A stretch of DNA of 21,447 bases from a virus (IMGVR_UViG_3300038701_002310:1-21447), one strand, 5' to 3'; counted from the stretch's first letter, positions 673 through 12,107 are shown. The notes: generated from the letters alone by a model not told the origin. Translations and numbers: made by a program.

Positions 673-854
673 GACTCGCCTCCGTAAAAGGTCAAACAAT
701 TATCCACAATCTCGCCACGCGTAGCCCATTCGGGCATCGGCGGAAGATCGGGTCGTGTTGTTTTTGGATGGTCAAGCAGTGCTTTATAGAAGGCCGCACC
801 AAACGCGAGGTTTGGAAAATAGCCATCCAGCTTGTGGGTTTCCTTGCGGGTCAT
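669..854 (-). CDS. Hypothetical phage protein, 61 aa
   Basis: The ATG at 854 overlaps the upstream stop (851-854). The product is MTRKETHKLDGYFPNLAFGA followed by FYKALLDHPKTTRPDLPPMP and a short C-terminus ending FYGGES. It is a compact soluble polypeptide with no motif I recognise. A longer in-frame upstream extension exists but reads as arginine-rich low-quality sequence antisense-frame to the 851-1204 gene, so the coupled start is preferred. A perfect DnaA box sequence (700-708) lies inside this gene. Confidence 0.55.
   Translation of the reverse strand: MTRKETHKLDGYFPNLAFGAAFYKALLDHPKTTRPDLPPMPEWATRGEIVDNCLTFYGGES
700..708 (+). promoter_or_regulatory. Perfect DnaA-box 9-mer (TTATCCACA)
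   Basis: Bases 700-708 read TTATCCACA, the consensus DnaA-binding 9-mer. It is inside the coding sequence of a small leftward gene. By a simple 4^9 estimate about 0.16 such sites are expected in a window of this length on both strands, and a second perfect copy is present at 5260-5268. Function is inferred only from the sequence match. Confidence 0.4.
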
Positions 855-3156: not shown

Positions 3157-3311
3157 ATAAGCCACCAGCAATGGACCCGGCCCGTGCCGCCGCCCGTGAG
3201 CGCTGGATATGCGCACCCAAGGGAAAGCGTGACGCCCGGCTCAAGGAGCTGAAAGACCTCACCACCGAGGCCCTTATCTGGAACCGGGAGGCGCGTAATG
3301 GCCAAGCGTAA
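3153..3311 (+). CDS. Small hypothetical protein, 52 aa
   Basis: The ATG at 3153 overlaps the previous stop (ATGA). The product is MNKPPAMDPARAAARERWIC, then APKGKRDARLKELKDLTTEA and LIWNREARNGQA. It ends at the TAA 3309-3311, overlapping the HNH gene start by 14 bases. It is basic and helical with no recognised family. It is not a shadow of a longer gene: it fills the only gap between its neighbours. Confidence 0.5.
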   Translation: MNKPPAMDPARAAARERWICAPKGKRDARLKELKDLTTEALIWNREARNGQA

Positions 3312-3690
3312 AGCCATACCCGTTGCCATCAAGCGCGCCGTGCTCGCCCGCTCTGGCGGAATGTGCGAGGCGCAAGACTGTGACCGTGTGGGCAAGGAGT
3401 TCGAGCACCGCGTCCCGGTAGCGCTGAACGGCGAGAACACAGAGGAAAACATCTGGCTTGCCTGCAAGACCTGTCACCGGAAGAAGACCAGCGAGCAGGA
3501 CTTGCCGCGCATCGCCAAAGCCAACCGCCAAGCGGGTAAGACGGGCCAGCGTGCGCGCCGTGAACGAGCCAAAGCAGCAGGAACTTATAGCGGCATTCCC
3601 TCACCAAAAGACGGCATGGGCAAGACACGCGGTTTCAGCAAGACACACAAGCGCCGTTTTGACGGCTCTGTTATTCGGAGGGATTCATGA
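3298..3690 (+). CDS. HNH endonuclease, 130 aa
   Basis: The protein carries a complete HNH/beta-beta-alpha-metal core. C23 and C28 (MCEAQDC) form the first half of a structural zinc site, E36-H37 the first catalytic His, N51 the central Asn, and C56-K-T-C59-H60 the second zinc pair with the metal-binding His. The C-terminal third is a Lys/Arg-rich tail suited to DNA contact. HNH enzymes make nicks or double-strand breaks. In phages they act in packaging when next to the terminase or as free-standing homing or recombination nucleases. Here it is in the early operon next to a VRR-NUC nuclease, so a replication, recombination or host-DNA role is more likely than packaging. Confidence 0.85.
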   Translation: MAKRKAIPVAIKRAVLARSGGMCEAQDCDRVGKEFEHRVPVALNGENTEENIWLACKTCHRKKTSEQDLPRIAKANRQAGKTGQRARRERAKAAGTYSGIPSPKDGMGKTRGFSKTHKRRFDGSVIRRDS

Positions 3691-4037
3691 AGCCGGAAGA
3701 CGCCATTCATCTCGCCATTGTGCGATATTTGAAAATGGCCCTGCCGAAGGATGCCCTGTTTTGGCACACGCCGAACACGTTCCCATCAGCCAAAATGCAA
3801 TATCACGTCAAGCTAAAGGATATGGGCCGCAGGGCGGGCATTCCCGATCTTCTGGTATTGCATGGCGCGAAGCTGATCGGACTTGAGGTGAAGGCCCCAA
3901 AGGGTCGCCAGTCGCCAGAGCAAAGGGACATCCAGGAACAGTTTGAATCCGCAGGCGGGCACTATCACCTTGTCCGCTCAATTGATGATGTGAAAGCAGT
4001 TTTGACAAGCCATGCCGTTATTCGGTCGGCTGCATAG
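3687..4037 (+). CDS. VRR-NUC domain nuclease, 116 aa
   Basis: The ATG at 3687 overlaps the HNH stop, behind a GGAGGG ribosome site. The sequence shows the small phage VRR-NUC pattern of the PD-(D/E)xK superfamily: a basic GRRAGIPDLLVL segment with D54, then E67-V-K69 and APKGRQSPEQ, and a final GGHYHLVRSIDD strand-helix. Stand-alone VRR-NUC proteins of about 100-120 residues are common in phage replication regions and have been reported to have Holliday-junction resolvase-type activity. Here the likely role is resolving branched replication intermediates before packaging. All core catalytic residues are present. Confidence 0.85.
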   Translation: MKPEDAIHLAIVRYLKMALPKDALFWHTPNTFPSAKMQYHVKLKDMGRRAGIPDLLVLHGAKLIGLEVKAPKGRQSPEQRDIQEQFESAGGHYHLVRSIDDVKAVLTSHAVIRSAA

Positions 4038-4045
4038 GAGGGGTC

Positions 4046-4546
4046 ATGACCTACAATTGGACAAAAGAATGCGAGGAGCGCTTAATTTCGCTGTGGAAGC
4101 TGGGAACAAGTGCAAGCGGTGTTGCGCAGCTGTTTGGTTGCGGCCTCACCAGAAACGCCATCCTCGGCAAGGTAGACCGCTTGCGCAAGGCGGGTATTGA
4201 TGTTGGCCCGGCCCGCACTGGTGGCGCTGCGGAGGCGGCAAGGCGGCGACCCAAGGCCCCGGTCATCAAGCACGTTGCCAAGCCGAAAGAGCTTCCACCA
4301 TGCGTGGAGCAGGACCCTACCCCGCTGCTCGATCTAAAGCCTCACCAGTGCCGTTACCCGATTGACGACATCAACGCGCCGGGCACGACTGAAACGCTTT
4401 TCTGTGGTGGCCAGAAGAAAGACGGCTCATCATACTGCGAGCATCACCACTCTGTCTGTTGCATGCCCTACAAGCGACGCAACAAGCCTCTGGACCGCTC
4501 CAAGTTTCGGGCGCAAGGCAAATTTGTTTTCGGGGTGGCAGCATGA
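4046..4546 (+). CDS. gcrA: GcrA-family cell-cycle transcription regulator, 166 aa
   Basis: The N-terminus (MTYNWTKECEERLISLWKLG, then SASGVAQLFG and TRNAILGKVDRL at residues 35-46) is the GcrA DNA-binding domain: a Trp-anchored helix bundle ending in the 'TRNAxxGKxxRL' recognition helix. A Lys/Pro-rich linker follows. The C-terminal region has C102-RYPI, C120-GG and C131-EHHH, matching the conserved 'CRWPI...FCG...SYCxxH' sigma-interacting domain of GcrA. In Caulobacter, GcrA binds RNA polymerase sigma70 and acts at promoters with methylated GANTC sites. A strong AGGAGGGG ribosome site precedes the ATG. The length is close to cellular GcrA (about 170 residues). The stop overlaps the methyltransferase start, so the two are co-translated. 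Confidence 0.88.
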   Translation: MTYNWTKECEERLISLWKLGTSASGVAQLFGCGLTRNAILGKVDRLRKAGIDVGPARTGGAAEAARRRPKAPVIKHVAKPKELPPCVEQDPTPLLDLKPHQCRYPIDDINAPGTTETLFCGGQKKDGSSYCEHHHSVCCMPYKRRNKPLDRSKFRAQGKFVFGVAA

Positions 4547-5244
4547 CCTATCAGCGCAAGGAAGTTATCGGCGAATGCACGCTGTACCAGGGCGATTGCC
4601 TTGAAGTGATGACGACGCTTGGCGAGTTCGATGCTGTGGTGACGGACCCGCCCTATGGGATGGCGTTTCGCTCCAATCACAGGTCTGTCAAACACAAAGC
4701 GATAGCCAATGACGGGGACGATTCTCTGTTGATCTGGGCCTGTGACCTGCCCGCTGCACATAGTCGCTATGTGTTCTGCAGGTGGGGTGACTTATTGAGG
4801 GTGCCGTACCCTAAAAGCTGTGTCGTTTGGGTGAAAAATAACTGGTCTATGGGTGATTTGCGGCATGAGCACGCCCGTCAATCCGAGTTGTGCCTGTTTT
4901 ATCCCGGACCGCATCACGACTTCCCCGATGGGCGGCCTAGTGACGTGGTGTTTGCGCCGCGCACCGACAACGCTCTTCACCCGACCGAAAAACCAGTTGC
5001 GTTGATGCGCCAAGTTGTCGGCTGGTCTCGCGGTCATGCCCTCGACCCCTTCATGGGCAGCGGGACCACAGGCGTTGCCAGCGTGAACCTTGGCCGCAGC
5101 TTCACCGGCATCGAGCTGGACCCCGGCTATTTCGACATCGCCTGCCGCCGGATCGAGGAGGCCTACAAGCAGCCCCGTCTGTTTGAAGAGCCTGCGCCGA
5201 AACCCGTGCAAGAGAAAATCAGCTTTGATGGAGATTCATCATGA
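4543..5244 (+). CDS. Beta-class DNA methyltransferase (N6-adenine or N4-cytosine), 233 aa
   Basis: The ATG at 4543 overlaps the GcrA stop (ATGA); a longer in-frame start at 4459 would run back into gcrA and is rejected. The catalytic motif DPPYG is at 35-39. After a variable region come HPTEKPVALM and the SAM-binding DPFMGSGTTG at 168-177, followed by GIELDPGYFDIA. Catalytic motif before SAM motif is the beta-class order shared with CcrM. At 233 residues it lacks the C-terminal extension of CcrM (about 358 residues) and resembles short phage orphan methyltransferases. No restriction enzyme is adjacent. The target sequence cannot be read from the protein, but its coupling to gcrA makes GANTC, or protection against host nucleases, the first hypotheses. 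Confidence 0.88.
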   Translation: MTYQRKEVIGECTLYQGDCLEVMTTLGEFDAVVTDPPYGMAFRSNHRSVKHKAIANDGDDSLLIWACDLPAAHSRYVFCRWGDLLRVPYPKSCVVWVKNNWSMGDLRHEHARQSELCLFYPGPHHDFPDGRPSDVVFAPRTDNALHPTEKPVALMRQVVGWSRGHALDPFMGSGTTGVASVNLGRSFTGIELDPGYFDIACRRIEEAYKQPRLFEEPAPKPVQEKISFDGDSS

Positions 5245-5621
5245 AATACGAGCGCTCATTTATCCACAATGGCTGTATTGCCGTGGTTTATAAGGAAAAA
5301 TTCGACTACCCCATGCGCAAGCCTGTAGACGTCGAGGCGATTTTGCAGGAGGTGGCAGAAGAATATGGTCTTCCTGATCGCGGAGTCACCGGTCGATGCA
5401 AAAAGCCTATATATATCGCGGCAAGGCATGATTTTTTCTATAGAGCGTTGACCGCTCTCAAGGGAACAAGTCGCGGCGCTTCGTGGATTGGTGCACGGTA
5501 CGGGTTCGATCACTCGACGGTGTTGCATGGTGCTGCGCGCCACGCTTGGAGGCATGATTTGAAAAGCCCGACAAAATACGATTTGAGCTGGCGTGTTGCA
5601 AAAGGGAAAAGCCAGGGCTAA
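5241..5621 (+). CDS. Stand-alone DnaA domain-IV (DNA-binding) protein, 126 aa
   Basis: After about 27 divergent residues, positions 28-105 align by eye with DnaA domain IV. VDVEAILQEVAEEYGLPD corresponds to the first helix, GRCKKPIYIAARHDFFYRAL to the basic loop and long helix, and SWIGARYGFDHSTVLHGAAR (81-100) to the signature helix-turn-helix. The DHSTVLH core (90-96) matches the DHTTVLH residues that read the DnaA box. The AAA+ ATPase domains are absent, so it cannot act as a full initiator. It could occupy DnaA boxes, compete with host DnaA or mark a phage origin. It overlaps the methyltransferase gene by four bases. A perfect DnaA box lies in its own codons 7-10. Confidence 0.85.
   Translation: MKYERSFIHNGCIAVVYKEKFDYPMRKPVDVEAILQEVAEEYGLPDRGVTGRCKKPIYIAARHDFFYRALTALKGTSRGASWIGARYGFDHSTVLHGAARHAWRHDLKSPTKYDLSWRVAKGKSQG
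5260..5268 (+). promoter_or_regulatory. Perfect DnaA-box 9-mer inside the DnaA-domain gene
   Basis: Bases 5260-5268 read TTATCCACA, the consensus DnaA box, 19 bases after the first base of the gene for the DnaA domain-IV protein. This allows autoregulation or host DnaA binding at the end of the gcrA-methyltransferase-dnaA-like operon. It may also be chance constrained by coding (Ile-His-Asn). Confidence 0.5.
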
Positions 5622-5629
5622 AAAGAAAT

Positions 5630-5658
5630 GGCCGGGCAGCTCGCAAAAGCCCCCGGCC
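5630..5658. terminator. GC-rich hairpin at the end of the early rightward operon
   Basis: A perfect 7-bp stem, GGCCGGG (5630-5636) and CCCGGCC (5652-5658) with a 15-base loop, begins nine bases after the stop of the DnaA-like gene. On the plus strand no T-run follows. On the minus strand the stem is followed by ATTTCTTTTT. It is therefore a better intrinsic terminator for leftward transcription, and possibly a 3' boundary hairpin for the rightward mRNA. Confidence 0.4.
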
Positions 5659-6093
5659 TCAAAGCGGTATGTTGTTTGGAGACGACGGACCCGCTTCGGA
5701 AGTTAATTGTATAGACCATTAGGTGACAGCTTCCAAGTCTGCATTCTCCAAAAAACGCTGCATCGGGCGGACGCCGGGGGTGTAGTGTATTCAAGCGCGG
5801 TACCTGGGGTTCCTGACACACCGCGCAAGCCCGCTCCTAGGGTCGGAGGGCAGTCAGCGGCGCTACCTGAGCGCCGTAAGTAGCGACCACCTCGAAGTGT
5901 GCAGGAATGCGCTGAGAGGCCCGAACGTGACGGCTGGCTCCGGTCGAGCAAGATTGCGTTGGATGGGACAGGGACGACTGTAGGCCTATTGGTCTCAGTG
6001 GTTCTTGTCCTCCTATGCCCACCGCTCAGGCATCACCAGTCGAGCAGGGATAAGAGGTAAGGTTGATATAGCTAACTACAACAGGGGTATGAA
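5659..6093. other. About 435-bp region without a gene; candidate structured RNA or regulatory region
   Basis: All short reading frames here give Ser/Arg/Pro-rich translations without ribosome sites, so I call the region non-coding. It holds several perfect stems: GCGCGGT/ACCGCGC (5795-5801 with 5820-5826), CGGCGCT/AGCGCCG (5858-5864 with 5870-5876, 5-base loop) and a bulged GCC-CTCC/GGAG-GGC stem (5829-5851). ATGCC/GGCAT occurs near 6014-6032, and a long-range CTGAGA/TCTCAG pairing is possible (about 5911-5916 with 5993-5998). GGACA near 5965 and TGTCC near 6006 could pair across that helix as a pseudoknot. No tRNA, tmRNA, iteron array or known riboswitch was recognised. The strand is undecided. 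Confidence 0.4.
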
Positions 6094-6780: not shown

Positions 6781-7202
6781 CATTCAAGATTACTGAAAAC
6801 GATGTAGGGCGGATGGCGGTAACGCGGGATGGCCGTCTTGCTAAGGTTTCTACGTGCCGTCCCGGAGAATCAAGACGCGTGCTTGTCGAGATGAAGGACT
6901 CGTTGTGTCGATCAGGCTATTGGGTAGCTGCAGACGGGCTAGATTCTGAAGAACGTTCTGATGATCTTGTCGCATGGGCAGACGAGCAAGATCAGGAAGA
7001 GCCCGATTCCAAAGAACAGGTGCCGCGCGGCCCCTCTGGGGCGGCCATTCGCGATTGCCCTGAGCTAATCAGCATTTCTCGCGTAGCAAATGGGTGGGTT
7101 GTCCATGCAAGCCAGGTAGACGGGCAACAGATTGGTGACCATGTCGCGCTCACGCAATCCGACCTTCTCGACGTGATCCGCAAACTGACGGGTGATGAAT
7201 GA
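6777..7202 (+). CDS. Tandem paralogue B with an extra C-terminal domain, 141 aa
   Basis: The N-terminal half (KITENDVGRMAVTRDGRLAK ... GYWVAADG ... DDLVAWADEQ) is homologous to the preceding gene. After an acidic linker (about 66-85) a second segment (about 95-141, with ISISRVANGWVVHASQVDGQ and LTQSDLLDVIRKLTGDE) is unique to this copy. Junction bases are near-identical to those before paralogue A. This indicates duplication with subsequent fusion or loss. The function is unknown. Confidence 0.6.
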   Translation: MTFKITENDVGRMAVTRDGRLAKVSTCRPGESRRVLVEMKDSLCRSGYWVAADGLDSEERSDDLVAWADEQDQEEPDSKEQVPRGPSGAAIRDCPELISISRVANGWVVHASQVDGQQIGDHVALTQSDLLDVIRKLTGDE

Positions 7203-7852
7203 CAATCACCGAGCTAATCACCTCCATGCGTGAGGCAGGCATAGCGCCCGATCAGATACTTGATGCCGTGGTGAAGCTGGAAGCCAAGAAGCCGACACGC
7301 AAAAAGGCCCCATCAAAGGCTGCAAACCCGGTATTTGAGGAGGCGTGGCAGCTCTGGCCATCCAAGGCCCGCAGGCGCTCGCCCAAGGGACAATCCCTGC
7401 AACGCTTCAATGATGCCTGCAAGGACTATGACGCTGAGGACATCAAGCGGGCCATTGTTCTTTACGTTCGCTCACCAGACGCCAAGCAGGAAGACGGGCA
7501 ATACGCCCCGACCCTGGAGCGCTGGCTTCGCAACGGGATGCATATCAATTGGCTGGATGACGCCCGACCGCGTGATGTGCGAGAGGAATTGGAAGCCATT
7601 GAGCTTGGGGACAGTGCCGAGCATCGCTTTTTGAAGCAGTGCCGTGAGGATGGTGCTAGCGAGTGGCGCATAGCGTCCTGGTCGAAGACGGGAAGGTTCG
7701 AGATACAACGCCATGACGGGAAGACATATTGCGTTGTTGATGGCCGGGACGATGAATTCAAGGTAGACTTTGGCAAGACGTTGGAGCGGTTTGAATGCAA
7801 GGTCTACACACGCGCATTCTATGACCGCTTATCGAGAGAGAGGAGAGCGTGA
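7199..7852 (+). CDS. Phage replication-associated protein (putative), 217 aa
   Basis: Residues about 44-120 read NPVFEEAWQLWPSKARRRSP, then KGQSLQRFNDACKDYDAEDI and YAPTLERWLRNGMHINWLDD. The pattern 'FExxWxxxPxKxxxxxAxxxFxxA... Ixxxxxxxx... xPtxxxWLxxxxWxD' is the C-terminal domain found in many phage replication-initiation or primosome-like proteins. The N-terminus is a short helical region plus a basic linker (KKPTRKKAPSKAA). The C-terminal 90 residues have no recognised motif. The winged-helix initiator domain seen in full-length relatives is missing, so the exact role is open. ATGA-type overlaps link it to both neighbours. Confidence 0.5.
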   Translation: MTITELITSMREAGIAPDQILDAVVKLEAKKPTRKKAPSKAANPVFEEAWQLWPSKARRRSPKGQSLQRFNDACKDYDAEDIKRAIVLYVRSPDAKQEDGQYAPTLERWLRNGMHINWLDDARPRDVREELEAIELGDSAEHRFLKQCREDGASEWRIASWSKTGRFEIQRHDGKTYCVVDGRDDEFKVDFGKTLERFECKVYTRAFYDRLSRERRA

Positions 7853-8172
7853 TGGAAGTTTTTTGGGCCATGATAGGCTCTGTGGCGATTGGCTTGGGGG
7901 CGGCATTCTCATTTTGGGCGGTTTCCAAGAATGGTAAACCGAAAGAGCTTGAGGCGTGCAGCGGCGACATGAGAGTTGTCGAAGTGCGGCTAGAGAATGG
8001 GGAGGCTTTTTATCATATCGAAGTATTCAGAGAGTACTATCCTGACGTGGGTGGGTGTTGGGTCAATTTAAATCAAAAGCGCTATGATAGCGAAGAGGAC
8101 GCGCAAGCCCGCATTGATGAAATAAAAGGACTGCGAGAGGTGTCGCGAAAAGTTATCGAGAGGGCTGCGTGA
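7852..8172 (+). CDS. Small membrane-anchored protein, 106 aa
   Basis: The start is set at the ATG at 7852, overlapping the previous stop (TGATG), with an AGAGGAGAG ribosome site. Residues about 4-24 (FWAMIGSVAIGLGAAFSFWA) are one transmembrane helix. The remaining 80 residues form a soluble alpha/beta segment (VVEVRLENGEAFYHIEVFRE, then a helix rich in Glu/Arg). This is probably an inner-membrane protein with a cytoplasmic domain. No family is recognised. Confidence 0.55.
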   Translation: MEVFWAMIGSVAIGLGAAFSFWAVSKNGKPKELEACSGDMRVVEVRLENGEAFYHIEVFREYYPDVGGCWVNLNQKRYDSEEDAQARIDEIKGLREVSRKVIERAA

Positions 8173-9927: not shown

Positions 9928-10289
9928 CCGACCGCCTGGTAAAGATGCTGGAGAACAATCGCCGTGTGTGCCGGGGACTGGCAAAGCGTGCTGATGGTGT
10001 CGCCTTCCTCCTGGATGAGAATGAAACGCTAGACGTGACCGTTGACTGGACAGACTGGCTAGGCTCTTCAACCATCGCCAGCGTCACCAATGAAGCAACA
10101 GGCGTATCAGTCACCAGTGCCAACACAACCACGACAGCAACACTCACGCTAAGCGCTCCCCCTGGCATCATTCAACACCGCATTACGACAGACGGCGGAG
10201 AGGTCAAAGAGCTGCGCATTTATGTCAACAGCCCAACAGGCAATGTAAGCGATGATTACGGCCTGTGTCGGACCGGAGTCGTGTACTGA
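9924..10289 (+). CDS. Ig-like phage structural or adaptor protein, 121 aa
   Basis: The ATG at 9924 overlaps the previous stop. The core reads LDVTVDWTDWLGSSTIASVT, then TTTTATLTLSAPPGIIQHRI and GEVKELRIYV. This 'DxTxDWTxWL...ITxxxxxxxGxxxxxxxxxxTxTxxLSxGxxGxxxxxxxxITTxxGRxxxxxxxxxV' pattern belongs to the small Ig-like domain protein found near terminase or fibre genes in many podoviruses and siphoviruses. It is thought to be a fibre/tail adaptor. It is likely a virion component coupled to the gene before it and to terS after it. Confidence 0.55.
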   Translation: MTDRLVKMLENNRRVCRGLAKRADGVAFLLDENETLDVTVDWTDWLGSSTIASVTNEATGVSVTSANTTTTATLTLSAPPGIIQHRITTDGGEVKELRIYVNSPTGNVSDDYGLCRTGVVY

Positions 10290-10756
10290 TGGCCGCGCTC
10301 AAGAATGGTCGCTGGGAACGCTTCGCACAGGAGCTGGCAAAGGGCGCAACGGGTGACGCGGCCTATATCGCAGCGGGCTACAAACCAAACCGCAACAACG
10401 CTTCTCGCCTGAAAGCAAATGATATCATTCGCAATCGCATCGCAGAACTGCAAGAGAGAGCAGCCGTTCGCACCGAATTGACGGTAGCCGATGTGACGGA
10501 AAACCTGCTTCGTCTGGCCAAGCAATCAGAGGCTATGGCGAGTGAGGCGGGAGCGCAGGCAGCTCGTGCATGTTGGATGGATGCGGCCAAGCTAAACGGC
10601 CTTGTGGTCGATAAGAGCCAAGTTGCAACAGAGAATGTGAATTTCGAGGTTCGCGATGAGCCAATGACTGATGAGCAATGGGGTGAGCAATATGCGGAGG
10701 GTTCTGTGGGCACCACAACAGGGGCCGCAGACGGCGCTGATTCACTGCCCCATTAG
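10289..10756 (+). CDS. terS: Terminase small subunit, 155 aa
   Basis: The start at 10289 (TGATG junction) is preferred to a GTG at 10265. Residues 6-52 (GRWERFAQELAKGATGDAAY, IAAGYKPNRNNASRLKANDI) are the helix-turn-helix of the Terminase_2 type: 'FxxxxxxGxxxxxAYxxAGYxxxxxxASRLxxxxxxxxRIxEL'. A coiled middle follows (57-115), then an acidic tail after NFEVRDEPMTDEQW. The protein recognises the pac or cos site and recruits the large subunit, whose gene overlaps this one by at least 65 bases. Confidence 0.8.
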   Translation: MAALKNGRWERFAQELAKGATGDAAYIAAGYKPNRNNASRLKANDIIRNRIAELQERAAVRTELTVADVTENLLRLAKQSEAMASEAGAQAARACWMDAAKLNGLVVDKSQVATENVNFEVRDEPMTDEQWGEQYAEGSVGTTTGAADGADSLPH

Positions 10757-12107
10757 TGAGATACTCTTCGGTGGCGCTCGGGGTGGCGGCAAGACGGATG
10801 GTGGTTTAGGTCGGCAGTTACTGCGAGAGCGTCACTACGGATCGGGATTCAATGAGGTCTACTTCCGCCAGGAGATGCCACAGGCTGATGACCTGATCGA
10901 GCGGGCGAAAGAATTATACATCCCGACCGGCGCGGATTGGAAAGAGCAGCAAAAGAAGTTTGTGTTTCCCAGCGGCGGGACATTGCGTTTCCGGCCATTG
11001 GAAAGCACGCAGGACGCGCAGAAGTATCAGGGACAGAACCTGTCGGGCGCAACGGTTGAAGAGGCTGGCAATTATCCCTTGCCTGATCCGATTGACCGGC
11101 TGTGGGGCGCGATGCGGTCTGCAAAGGGTGTGAAGCCTCAGCTTTTGTTGACGGCCAACCCTGGTGGCCCTGGTCAAGCATGGATTAAAGAGCGGTTTGT
11201 TGATCCGTGCCCATCGGGGAACAAGATTATTAACGTGACTCTGCCGAATGGCCAGCTGCATCGGCGGGTGTTCATTCCATCCAGAGTGCAAAACAACAAG
11301 GTTCTGCTGGAGCGGGACCCGGACTATGTGAACCGGCTGTATCTGGTTGGCTCTAAGGAGCTGGTCAGGGCGTGGCTGGAGGGTGACTGGAACGCTATTG
11401 AAGGTGCGTTCTTTGACGATTGGTCGATGACCAAGCATGTAATTGAGCCATTCGAGATTCCGGCTCATTGGATGCGGTTTCGGTCTGGCGACTGGGGCAG
11501 CGCAGCGCCGTTCTCGATTGGTTGGTGGGCTGTTGCCTCTGAGGACTATAATCACGGTTCGGGTGTCATCCCGCGCGGTGCAATGGTTCGCTATCGTGAG
11601 TGGTACGGGGCAAGCGCGCCTAACAAGGGATTGAAGCTCACGGCTGAGGAAGTTGCTCGGGGCATCCGAGAGCGTGAGGAAGAGGGCGAGCCGATTACGT
11701 ACAGCGTGATGGACCCGGCGGCGTTTGCTGAGGATGGCGGGCCAAGCCTGACTGACCGGATGCGCCTTGAGGGTGTTGTATGGCGTCGCGCTGACAATCG
11801 CCGGGTTGGCGTTCGCGGCGCAATGGGCGGCTGGGATCAGATGCGCGCTCGAATGAAGGGCGTTGACGGCAGGCCCATGATTTACTGCTTCTCCACGTGT
11901 GGGGCGAGCATTCGGACTATCCCGGCGCTGCAGCATGACCCACGCAGACCGGAAGACCTGGACACTACGGCAGAGGACCACGCGGCGGACGAATGGCGTT
12001 ATGGGTGCATGTCGCGCCCCTGGACAGCTTCGCTTCCATCGCCGCCCCCGGTTCAGTTCAATGACTACGCAGCACAAGAGCAGGAGGCGTCTGACTCATG
12101 GCTATGA
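10692..12107 (+). CDS. terL: Terminase large subunit, 471 aa
   Basis: This is the packaging ATPase and nuclease. The start at 10692 is chosen because a GGGGTGAG ribosome site precedes it and the protein then opens MRRVLWAPQQGPQTALIHCP, as relatives do. An in-frame ATG at 10671 would add seven residues. The Walker A loop GGARGGGKT is at 27-35, the Walker B-like GATVEEA at 119-125 and the coupling motif LLLTANPGGPG at 151-161. Nuclease acidic residues are D267 (SGDWG), D341 (SVMDPAA) and D433 (HAADEWRYG). All essential residues are present. It overlaps terS by 65 bases and portal by 10. The order terS-terL-portal-scaffold-coat is standard. Confidence 0.93.
   Translation: MRRVLWAPQQGPQTALIHCPISEILFGGARGGGKTDGGLGRQLLRERHYGSGFNEVYFRQEMPQADDLIERAKELYIPTGADWKEQQKKFVFPSGGTLRFRPLESTQDAQKYQGQNLSGATVEEAGNYPLPDPIDRLWGAMRSAKGVKPQLLLTANPGGPGQAWIKERFVDPCPSGNKIINVTLPNGQLHRRVFIPSRVQNNKVLLERDPDYVNRLYLVGSKELVRAWLEGDWNAIEGAFFDDWSMTKHVIEPFEIPAHWMRFRSGDWGSAAPFSIGWWAVASEDYNHGSGVIPRGAMVRYREWYGASAPNKGLKLTAEEVARGIREREEEGEPITYSVMDPAAFAEDGGPSLTDRMRLEGVVWRRADNRRVGVRGAMGGWDQMRARMKGVDGRPMIYCFSTCGASIRTIPALQHDPRRPEDLDTTAEDHAADEWRYGCMSRPWTASLPSPPPVQFNDYAAQEQEASDSWL

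Follow-up and report, generated by a model that had tools for sequence, protein, structure and literature searches.

An ATGA-coupled phage operon for a GcrA homologue, a small beta-class methyltransferase and a DnaA domain-IV-only protein

Layout of the operon and its surroundings

The window analysed here is the whole of a 21,447-base virus fragment, an incomplete record. Between positions 4046 and 5621, reading frames for a GcrA homologue, a methyltransferase and a protein confined to DnaA domain IV (DnaA-IV) lie open on the plus strand, in the order claimed by an earlier note on this DNA. All three proteins have clear relatives, which rules out chance open reading frames. The features of the region are as follows.

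3298..3690, plus strand: HNH endonuclease gene, upstream in the same coupled gene run (PF01844, E = 6e-9)
3687..4037, plus strand: VRR-NUC nuclease gene, upstream in the same coupled gene run (PF08774, E = 2e-5; phrog_824, E = 8e-23)
4046..4546, plus strand: GcrA homologue, 166 aa (PF07750, E = 9.6e-22)
4543..4546, plus strand: ATGA junction, GcrA stop and methyltransferase start (read from the sequence)
4543..5244, plus strand: small beta-class DNA methyltransferase of orphan phage type, 233 aa (PF01555, E = 1.1e-16; phrog_67, E = 4e-49)
5241..5244, plus strand: ATGA junction, methyltransferase stop and DnaA-IV start (read from the sequence)
5241..5621, plus strand: DnaA domain-IV-only protein, 126 aa, without AAA+ domain (PF08299, E = 2.3e-6; AlphaFold2 and VIA-align)
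5260..5268, plus strand: perfect DnaA box TTATCCACA, 20 bases into the DnaA-IV gene (exact match)
5621..6049, plus strand: conserved non-coding block, candidate structured RNA, directly 3' of the DnaA-IV stop (91% identity to positions 4560-4991 of the relative L123)
7199-7852: primosomal or replication-initiation-like gene, downstream

The coupled gene run starts earlier than GcrA, with the HNH gene and then the VRR-NUC gene, these two likewise joined by an ATGA overlap. An HNH-type gene also lies 5' of GcrA in the relatives L123, L210 and L211. Downstream, PHROG matches to portal, major head protein, head closure and DNA ejection mark the head module of a P22-like podovirus, and the portal, head and head-closure matches support the earlier note's assignment to that group. 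GANTC occurs 43 times in the window against 85.7 expected from shuffles (a ratio of 0.49 under a dinucleotide model), and the ratio is 0.12-0.45 where the loci come from phages bearing GcrA or DnaA-IV, against 0.73 for a Frateuria locus. Under the dinucleotide model the depletion of CTNAG and AANTT is similar, so that GANTC depletion by itself points only weakly to a host; together with the presence of GcrA, the counts suggest an alphaproteobacterial host. Depletion was rejected as proof of a GANTC-specific enzyme, since it is equal or stronger in loci that lack the window enzyme.

The three proteins and their counterparts

The GcrA homologue consists of an N-terminal helix-turn-helix domain (residues ~3-53), a linker and a C-terminal domain of the sigma-interacting type (~89-140). 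It scored 78.5 bits in PF07750 against a cut-off of 26.9, covering profile positions 2-151 of 155 and hence full-length, and GcrA of C. crescentus (7ye1) matched it with an E-value of 5e-13. The predicted model aligned with 5yiv, the GcrA DNA-binding domain in complex with methylated DNA, at Z 8.0 and an rmsd of 0.9 Å, over 45 of 45 residues with 47% identity, and with the sigma-interacting domain (5yix) at Z 6.0, over 48 of 48 residues with 31% identity, model confidence being high only in the N-terminal domain and moderate in the C-terminal one. With the family score and both domain folds in agreement, the placing of this protein in GcrA holds. Like GcrA of Caulobacter crescentus, it has DNA-binding and sigma-interacting domains, with ~40% identity and folds that fit 5yiv and 5yix. 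Unlike that chromosomal sigma70 cofactor, it fails the equivalog test of NCBIfam NF050816, at 62.8 bits against 280, which rules it out as an orthologue of that cell-cycle regulator. Residues R36, G41, K42, R45, C102, C120, C131 and H134 are invariant across 12 phage GcrAs, and W5, R45, C102, C120, C131 and H134 also in a wider set that includes C. crescentus GcrA. These conserved residues would fit a protein that reads host GANTC methylation; the 5yiv match, made with a predicted model, does not prove that the window GcrA prefers methylated GANTC.

The earlier note had placed GcrA homologues in some Caulobacter phages. They are indeed known there, as phiCbK gp222 (PMC3556154), but also well beyond, as gp5 of Agrobacterium phage Atu_ph08 (PMC6630229), ORF4/5 of brucellaphage Y17 (PMC11836647), Pam5 gp57 (PMC9382816) and homologues in phiLM21-like prophages (PMC12429752). 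The window protein shares with all of these the Pfam family and the two-domain layout, and the role proposed for it, steering host RNA polymerase, is that proposed for phiCbK gp222 and other phage GcrAs. Unlike them, its gene is ATGA-coupled to a methyltransferase gene and a DnaA-IV gene; the annotation of phiCbK shows neither at less than 3 kb from gp222. A tblastn search with C. crescentus GcrA matched 33 phage records, and a viral-contig scan with the single window GcrA protein gave no match; relatives of GcrA and DnaA-IV were reached via alignments and via the methyltransferase. In L002 (MW202785.1), a GcrA homologue at 7559-8095 was overlooked in the deposited annotation, which puts an opposite-strand gene there. 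Elsewhere, L019 (1260-1550) and L039 (995-1303) encode a ~100-aa GcrA DNA-binding domain alone, adjoining a methyltransferase and lacking the sigma-interacting part; it is possible that these proteins are GcrA decoys or competitors.

In the methyltransferase, DPPY (residue 35) precedes DPFMGSGTT (residue 168), which places motif IV before the SAM-binding motif I in the beta-class order. The nearest solved relatives by sequence are PDB enzymes named DpnA (5hek and 5hfj, E = 5e-16), relatives are present in 1152 phage records, and, judged from sequence, the family is an orphan one widespread in phages. Like CcrM, the enzyme has the beta-class motif order and a PF01555 domain; unlike CcrM (~350 aa), it has 233 residues, the shorter length that the earlier note had pointed out, and only its generic motif region could be aligned. 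The CcrM equivalog test gave 60.3 bits against a cut-off of 830, with the best stretch at model positions 182-253 of 350 and no match to the C-terminal part past position 253, and 6pbd (366 aa) aligned with the enzyme at 195-260 only.

The phage enzyme phiLM21_p027 has experimentally shown GANTC specificity, and GANTC-specific phage enzymes have been described as convergent and located in replication modules (PMC5537653); they are common in alphaproteobacterial phages, within such modules (PMC5537653, PMC7139368). The window enzyme resembles phiLM21_p027 in being a methyltransferase of an apparently alphaproteobacterial phage, and the replication module of phiLM21 also holds a DnaA-IV gene. 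It differs in having no sequence similarity to phiLM21_p027, which was discarded as a proxy for target specificity for that reason; no relative of proven specificity was found for the window enzyme. Enzymes 60-67% identical occur in Pelagibacterium and Pseudaminobacter genomes, and others in the genome of the gammaproteobacterium Frateuria (67%) and an Ekhidna MAG (61%). The Frateuria and Ekhidna copies argue against, without excluding, a target linked to the GANTC system of alphaproteobacteria. The earlier note had cast the enzyme as the CcrM part of the host loop and inferred a GANTC target; neither is supported, the alignment with CcrM being generic, the family a widespread orphan one and phiLM21_p027 unrelated. 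The closest parallels are the phrog_67 orphan enzymes of Sulfitobacter phage phiGT1 (gp53), Pan3 (gp55) and Rhizobium phage 16-3, which share its family, size and early-region position. Unlike the coupled genes of the window, the phiGT1 methyltransferase lies ~3 kb from the phiGT1 DnaA-IV gene, and GcrA was not detected in the phiGT1 stretch examined.

The DnaA-IV protein scored 28.0 bits in PF08299 (E = 2.3e-6), under the cut-off of 31.5, and its identity was therefore decided by structure. An AlphaFold2 model built from 13 phage sequences had a pLDDT of ~97 across residues 31-110. Aligned with VIA-align, it matched E. coli DnaA domain IV on a DnaA box (1j1v) at Z 11.9 over 77 residues and 2.1 Å. 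The M. tuberculosis DnaA-DBD (3pvp) gave Z 11.6, and in 8btg, an origin-opening complex, the DnaA chains gave Z 11.4; the top non-DnaA chain reached Z 6.0 only. The predicted fold is thus that of the DnaA DNA-binding domain, and the assignment of the 126-aa protein to domain IV is upheld by fold, though the Pfam score falls short. With this, and with the Pfam and PHROG matches and the motif order, the earlier note was right about all three identities and the ATGA-coupled operon.

The alignment of model residues 29-108 with E. coli 374-451 pairs H91 with H434, S92 with T435, R62 with R407 and K54 with R399, the pairing being deduced from the alignment ranges. In E. coli DnaA, the DnaA box is read by R399 and the helix 434-451, including H434 and T435 (PMC5742627). 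By alignment range, then, H434 and R407 are retained, T435 becomes S92 and R399 becomes K54; this last replacement could alter DnaA-box affinity. The conserved residues would fit a protein that competes at DnaA boxes. As a DnaA initiator the 126-aa protein fails: AAA+ ATPase domain III and helicase-loading domain I are both missing, so that it would be unable to act alone in that role.

Neither tblastn of the window DnaA-IV against phages nor a single-protein viral-contig scan gave a match. DnaA domain-IV-only proteins are already annotated in phages as phiGT1 gp62, phiLM21 p033 and Ssp-JY42 XAI96985, and these three, along with the relative in L123, pass the PF08299 cut-off. The window protein is like the three in its lone Bac_DnaA_C domain and its early or replication-region position, and unlike them in being directly coupled to GcrA and the methyltransferase; in Ssp-JY42 a GcrA gene lies ~3.7 kb upstream of the DnaA-IV gene. 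In L201, three DnaA-IV-type genes follow one another at 10208-11699, and the record has four PF08299 matches. The DnaA box TTATCCACA occurs in two exact copies in the window (700-708 and 5260-5268) against 0.12 expected, and the copy within the DnaA-IV gene is a possible autoregulatory site. As a general trait an autoregulatory box was rejected, since the DnaA-IV genes of relatives have no perfect box, whether inside them or alongside. The copy at 700-708 stands at the start of a leftward ORF (319-699).

Neighbourhoods in related phages and the block after DnaA-IV

Of 50 records whose methyltransferases come closest to that of the window, 12 contained GcrA and 7 a DnaA-IV match. Within ~6 kb of GcrA in 80 GcrA-bearing loci, DnaA-IV occurred in 10, a related methyltransferase in 6 and neither in 64. 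GcrA and DnaA-IV lay at most 1 kb apart in 4 of 11 cases (0.84 expected, P = 0.005), methyltransferase and DnaA-IV in 4 of 7 (0.55 expected, P = 0.0008), and methyltransferase and GcrA in 3 of 9 (0.58 expected, P = 0.016), all under a lenient null of uniform placement that makes the P values generous, because phage early genes cluster anyway. In L008-L011 an ATGA overlap couples GcrA to a methyltransferase from the window enzyme's family, and the two genes are adjacent in L175, L019, L039 and L209, the last with a more distant methyltransferase, then GcrA, then a helix-turn-helix (HTH) gene. In one other contig, L028, GcrA, methyltransferase and DnaA-IV share strand and order with other genes interposed. 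L018 and L020 seemed to have GcrA-like genes 5' of the methyltransferase, but these were dropped, as Pfam gives generic HTH domains only; L018 was for this reason not counted as a second triple.

The closest GcrA relative, in L123 (72% identity), overlaps by a stop/start ATGA with the gene for a 192-aa HTH-plus-DnaA-IV protein, and no methyltransferase lies between. Similarity between the window and L123 DNA runs through GcrA up to the ATGA, is then lost, and returns at 91% from the DnaA-IV stop, which makes the stretch between look like an exchangeable cassette; the two cassettes differ otherwise, yet both end in a DnaA-IV protein. The L123 protein (3983-4561) has an HTH_3-like N-terminus, under the Pfam cut-off, and DnaA domain IV at its C-terminus, and in L124 and L209 a short HTH gene like its N-terminal part occupies the same place. 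L124 continues from GcrA through the HTH gene to a DnaB helicase, and in L210 and L211 GcrA is ATGA-joined directly to DnaB, with no adjacent DnaA-IV (DnaB identity in these three was read from the sequence). The structural relatives hold subsets: methyltransferase and VRR-NUC in Pan3, GcrA in Pam5, and methyltransferase, VRR-NUC and DnaA-IV in phiGT1. The three-gene order is therefore not a conserved circuit; the neighbourhoods are recurrent but swappable. A dedicated three-part module, as the earlier note had it, is not supported by L123, which lacks the methyltransferase, or by L210 and L211, which lack an adjacent DnaA-IV. Each part was known before in phages, and the fully coupled triple seems to be unreported.

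In the ~430-nt block that adjoins the DnaA-IV stop, the window and L123 share 91% identity, against ~70-73% or no relation for neighbouring coding sequence. The plus strand of the block is predicted to fold more stably than shuffled sequence (z = -2.6), and its 42 substitutions break 9 predicted pairs on that strand against 17.2 by random placement (P = 0.0014); the minus strand gave no such pair-sparing signal (P = 0.14). Five gap columns in the alignment argue against a coding role. Rfam returned no family for 5621-6049 at gathering score or at E up to 1, and neither viral contigs nor phage records yielded a third copy. The block, which is probably structured, is a candidate new RNA known from two phages; its high identity could alternatively come from recent exchange between phages.

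Readings of the operon

The analysis shows the genes themselves, their coupling, the predicted folds, the retained contact residues and the neighbourhoods, whereas all biochemical activities, the co-expression and the host are inferred. On balance, the account we favour, with moderate confidence, is a variable early regulatory cassette that heads the replication genes of a P22-like podovirus, most likely one that infects an alphaproteobacterium, its parts co-expressed and modularly exchanged and not forming an obligate writer/reader pair. The GcrA homologue would probably bind host sigma70-RNA polymerase via its C-terminal domain and steer it to promoters carrying N6-methyladenine at GANTC, a mark that host CcrM would already have placed. 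DnaA-IV would probably bind DnaA boxes and be unable to hydrolyse ATP or load helicase, which would leave it to compete or repress at DnaA boxes on the host or phage genome, its own gene possibly among the sites. The methyltransferase would be an accessory orphan enzyme, most likely shielding phage DNA from restriction. The three genes would be co-expressed and have been brought together by modular exchange.

In a rather unlikely alternative, DnaA-IV serves phage replication by binding an origin on the phage DNA, which may lie within or close to 5621-6049, and GcrA drives the replication genes. The position of GcrA directly 5' of DnaB helicase in L210 and L211 is consistent with this, as are the DnaA-IV genes that follow DnaB and other replication genes in L005 and phiLM21 (p031-p033) and the presence of a conserved block directly 3' of the DnaA-IV stop. 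That block, however, contains no DnaA box, exact or with one mismatch, and its constraint is strand-specific, RNA-like rather than DNA-like.

It is unlikely, too, that three accessory genes with no functional tie were simply packed together by a gene-dense early region. ATGA packing is frequent in phage early genes, and here it takes in HNH and VRR-NUC genes as well; the sets in relatives are incomplete, with GcrA in Pam5, methyltransferase and VRR-NUC in Pan3, and methyltransferase and DnaA-IV ~3 kb apart in phiGT1. But each of the three pairings turns up within 1 kb more often than uniform placement would give, and DnaA-IV closes both the window cassette and the L123 cassette, which otherwise differ.

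We regard as distinctly improbable the circuit suggested by the earlier note, with writer and reader both from the phage: the methyltransferase would write a GANTC or other mark, GcrA would read it and DnaA-IV would block host origins, so that the operon as a unit would reset the host cell cycle. The ATGA overlaps, the recurrence of GcrA coupled or adjacent to a family methyltransferase (L008-L011; L175, L019, L039, L209) and the frequency of GANTC methyltransferases in replication modules of alphaproteobacterial phages (PMC5537653, PMC7139368) would all suit it. Set against them are an enzyme far from CcrM (60 bits against 830) and unrelated to phiLM21_p027, its 67% identical counterpart in gammaproteobacterial Frateuria, the lack of a neighbouring methyltransferase in L123, and the 64 of 80 GcrA-bearing phage loci with neither partner within ~6 kb. 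Very unlikely, in our judgement, is a self-contained takeover of the alphaproteobacterial cell cycle by the three proteins acting jointly; if it were true, DnaA-IV on host DnaA boxes would keep the chromosome from starting another round of replication, the methyltransferase would mark phage DNA, and GcrA would redirect host polymerase to the marked phage promoters.

Read as a variable regulatory cassette, the operon looks like a toolbox of host-control genes rather than a single fixed cell-cycle circuit. That the host counterparts DnaA, GcrA and CcrM form a loop need not mean that the same loop exists in the phage, and an over-reading is thereby corrected. Alphaproteobacterial phages have repeatedly acquired pieces of the DnaA-GcrA-CcrM loop, pieces so far described singly. 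The operon and its relatives with partial sets are natural constructs for the effect of each piece on host replication and transcription during infection.
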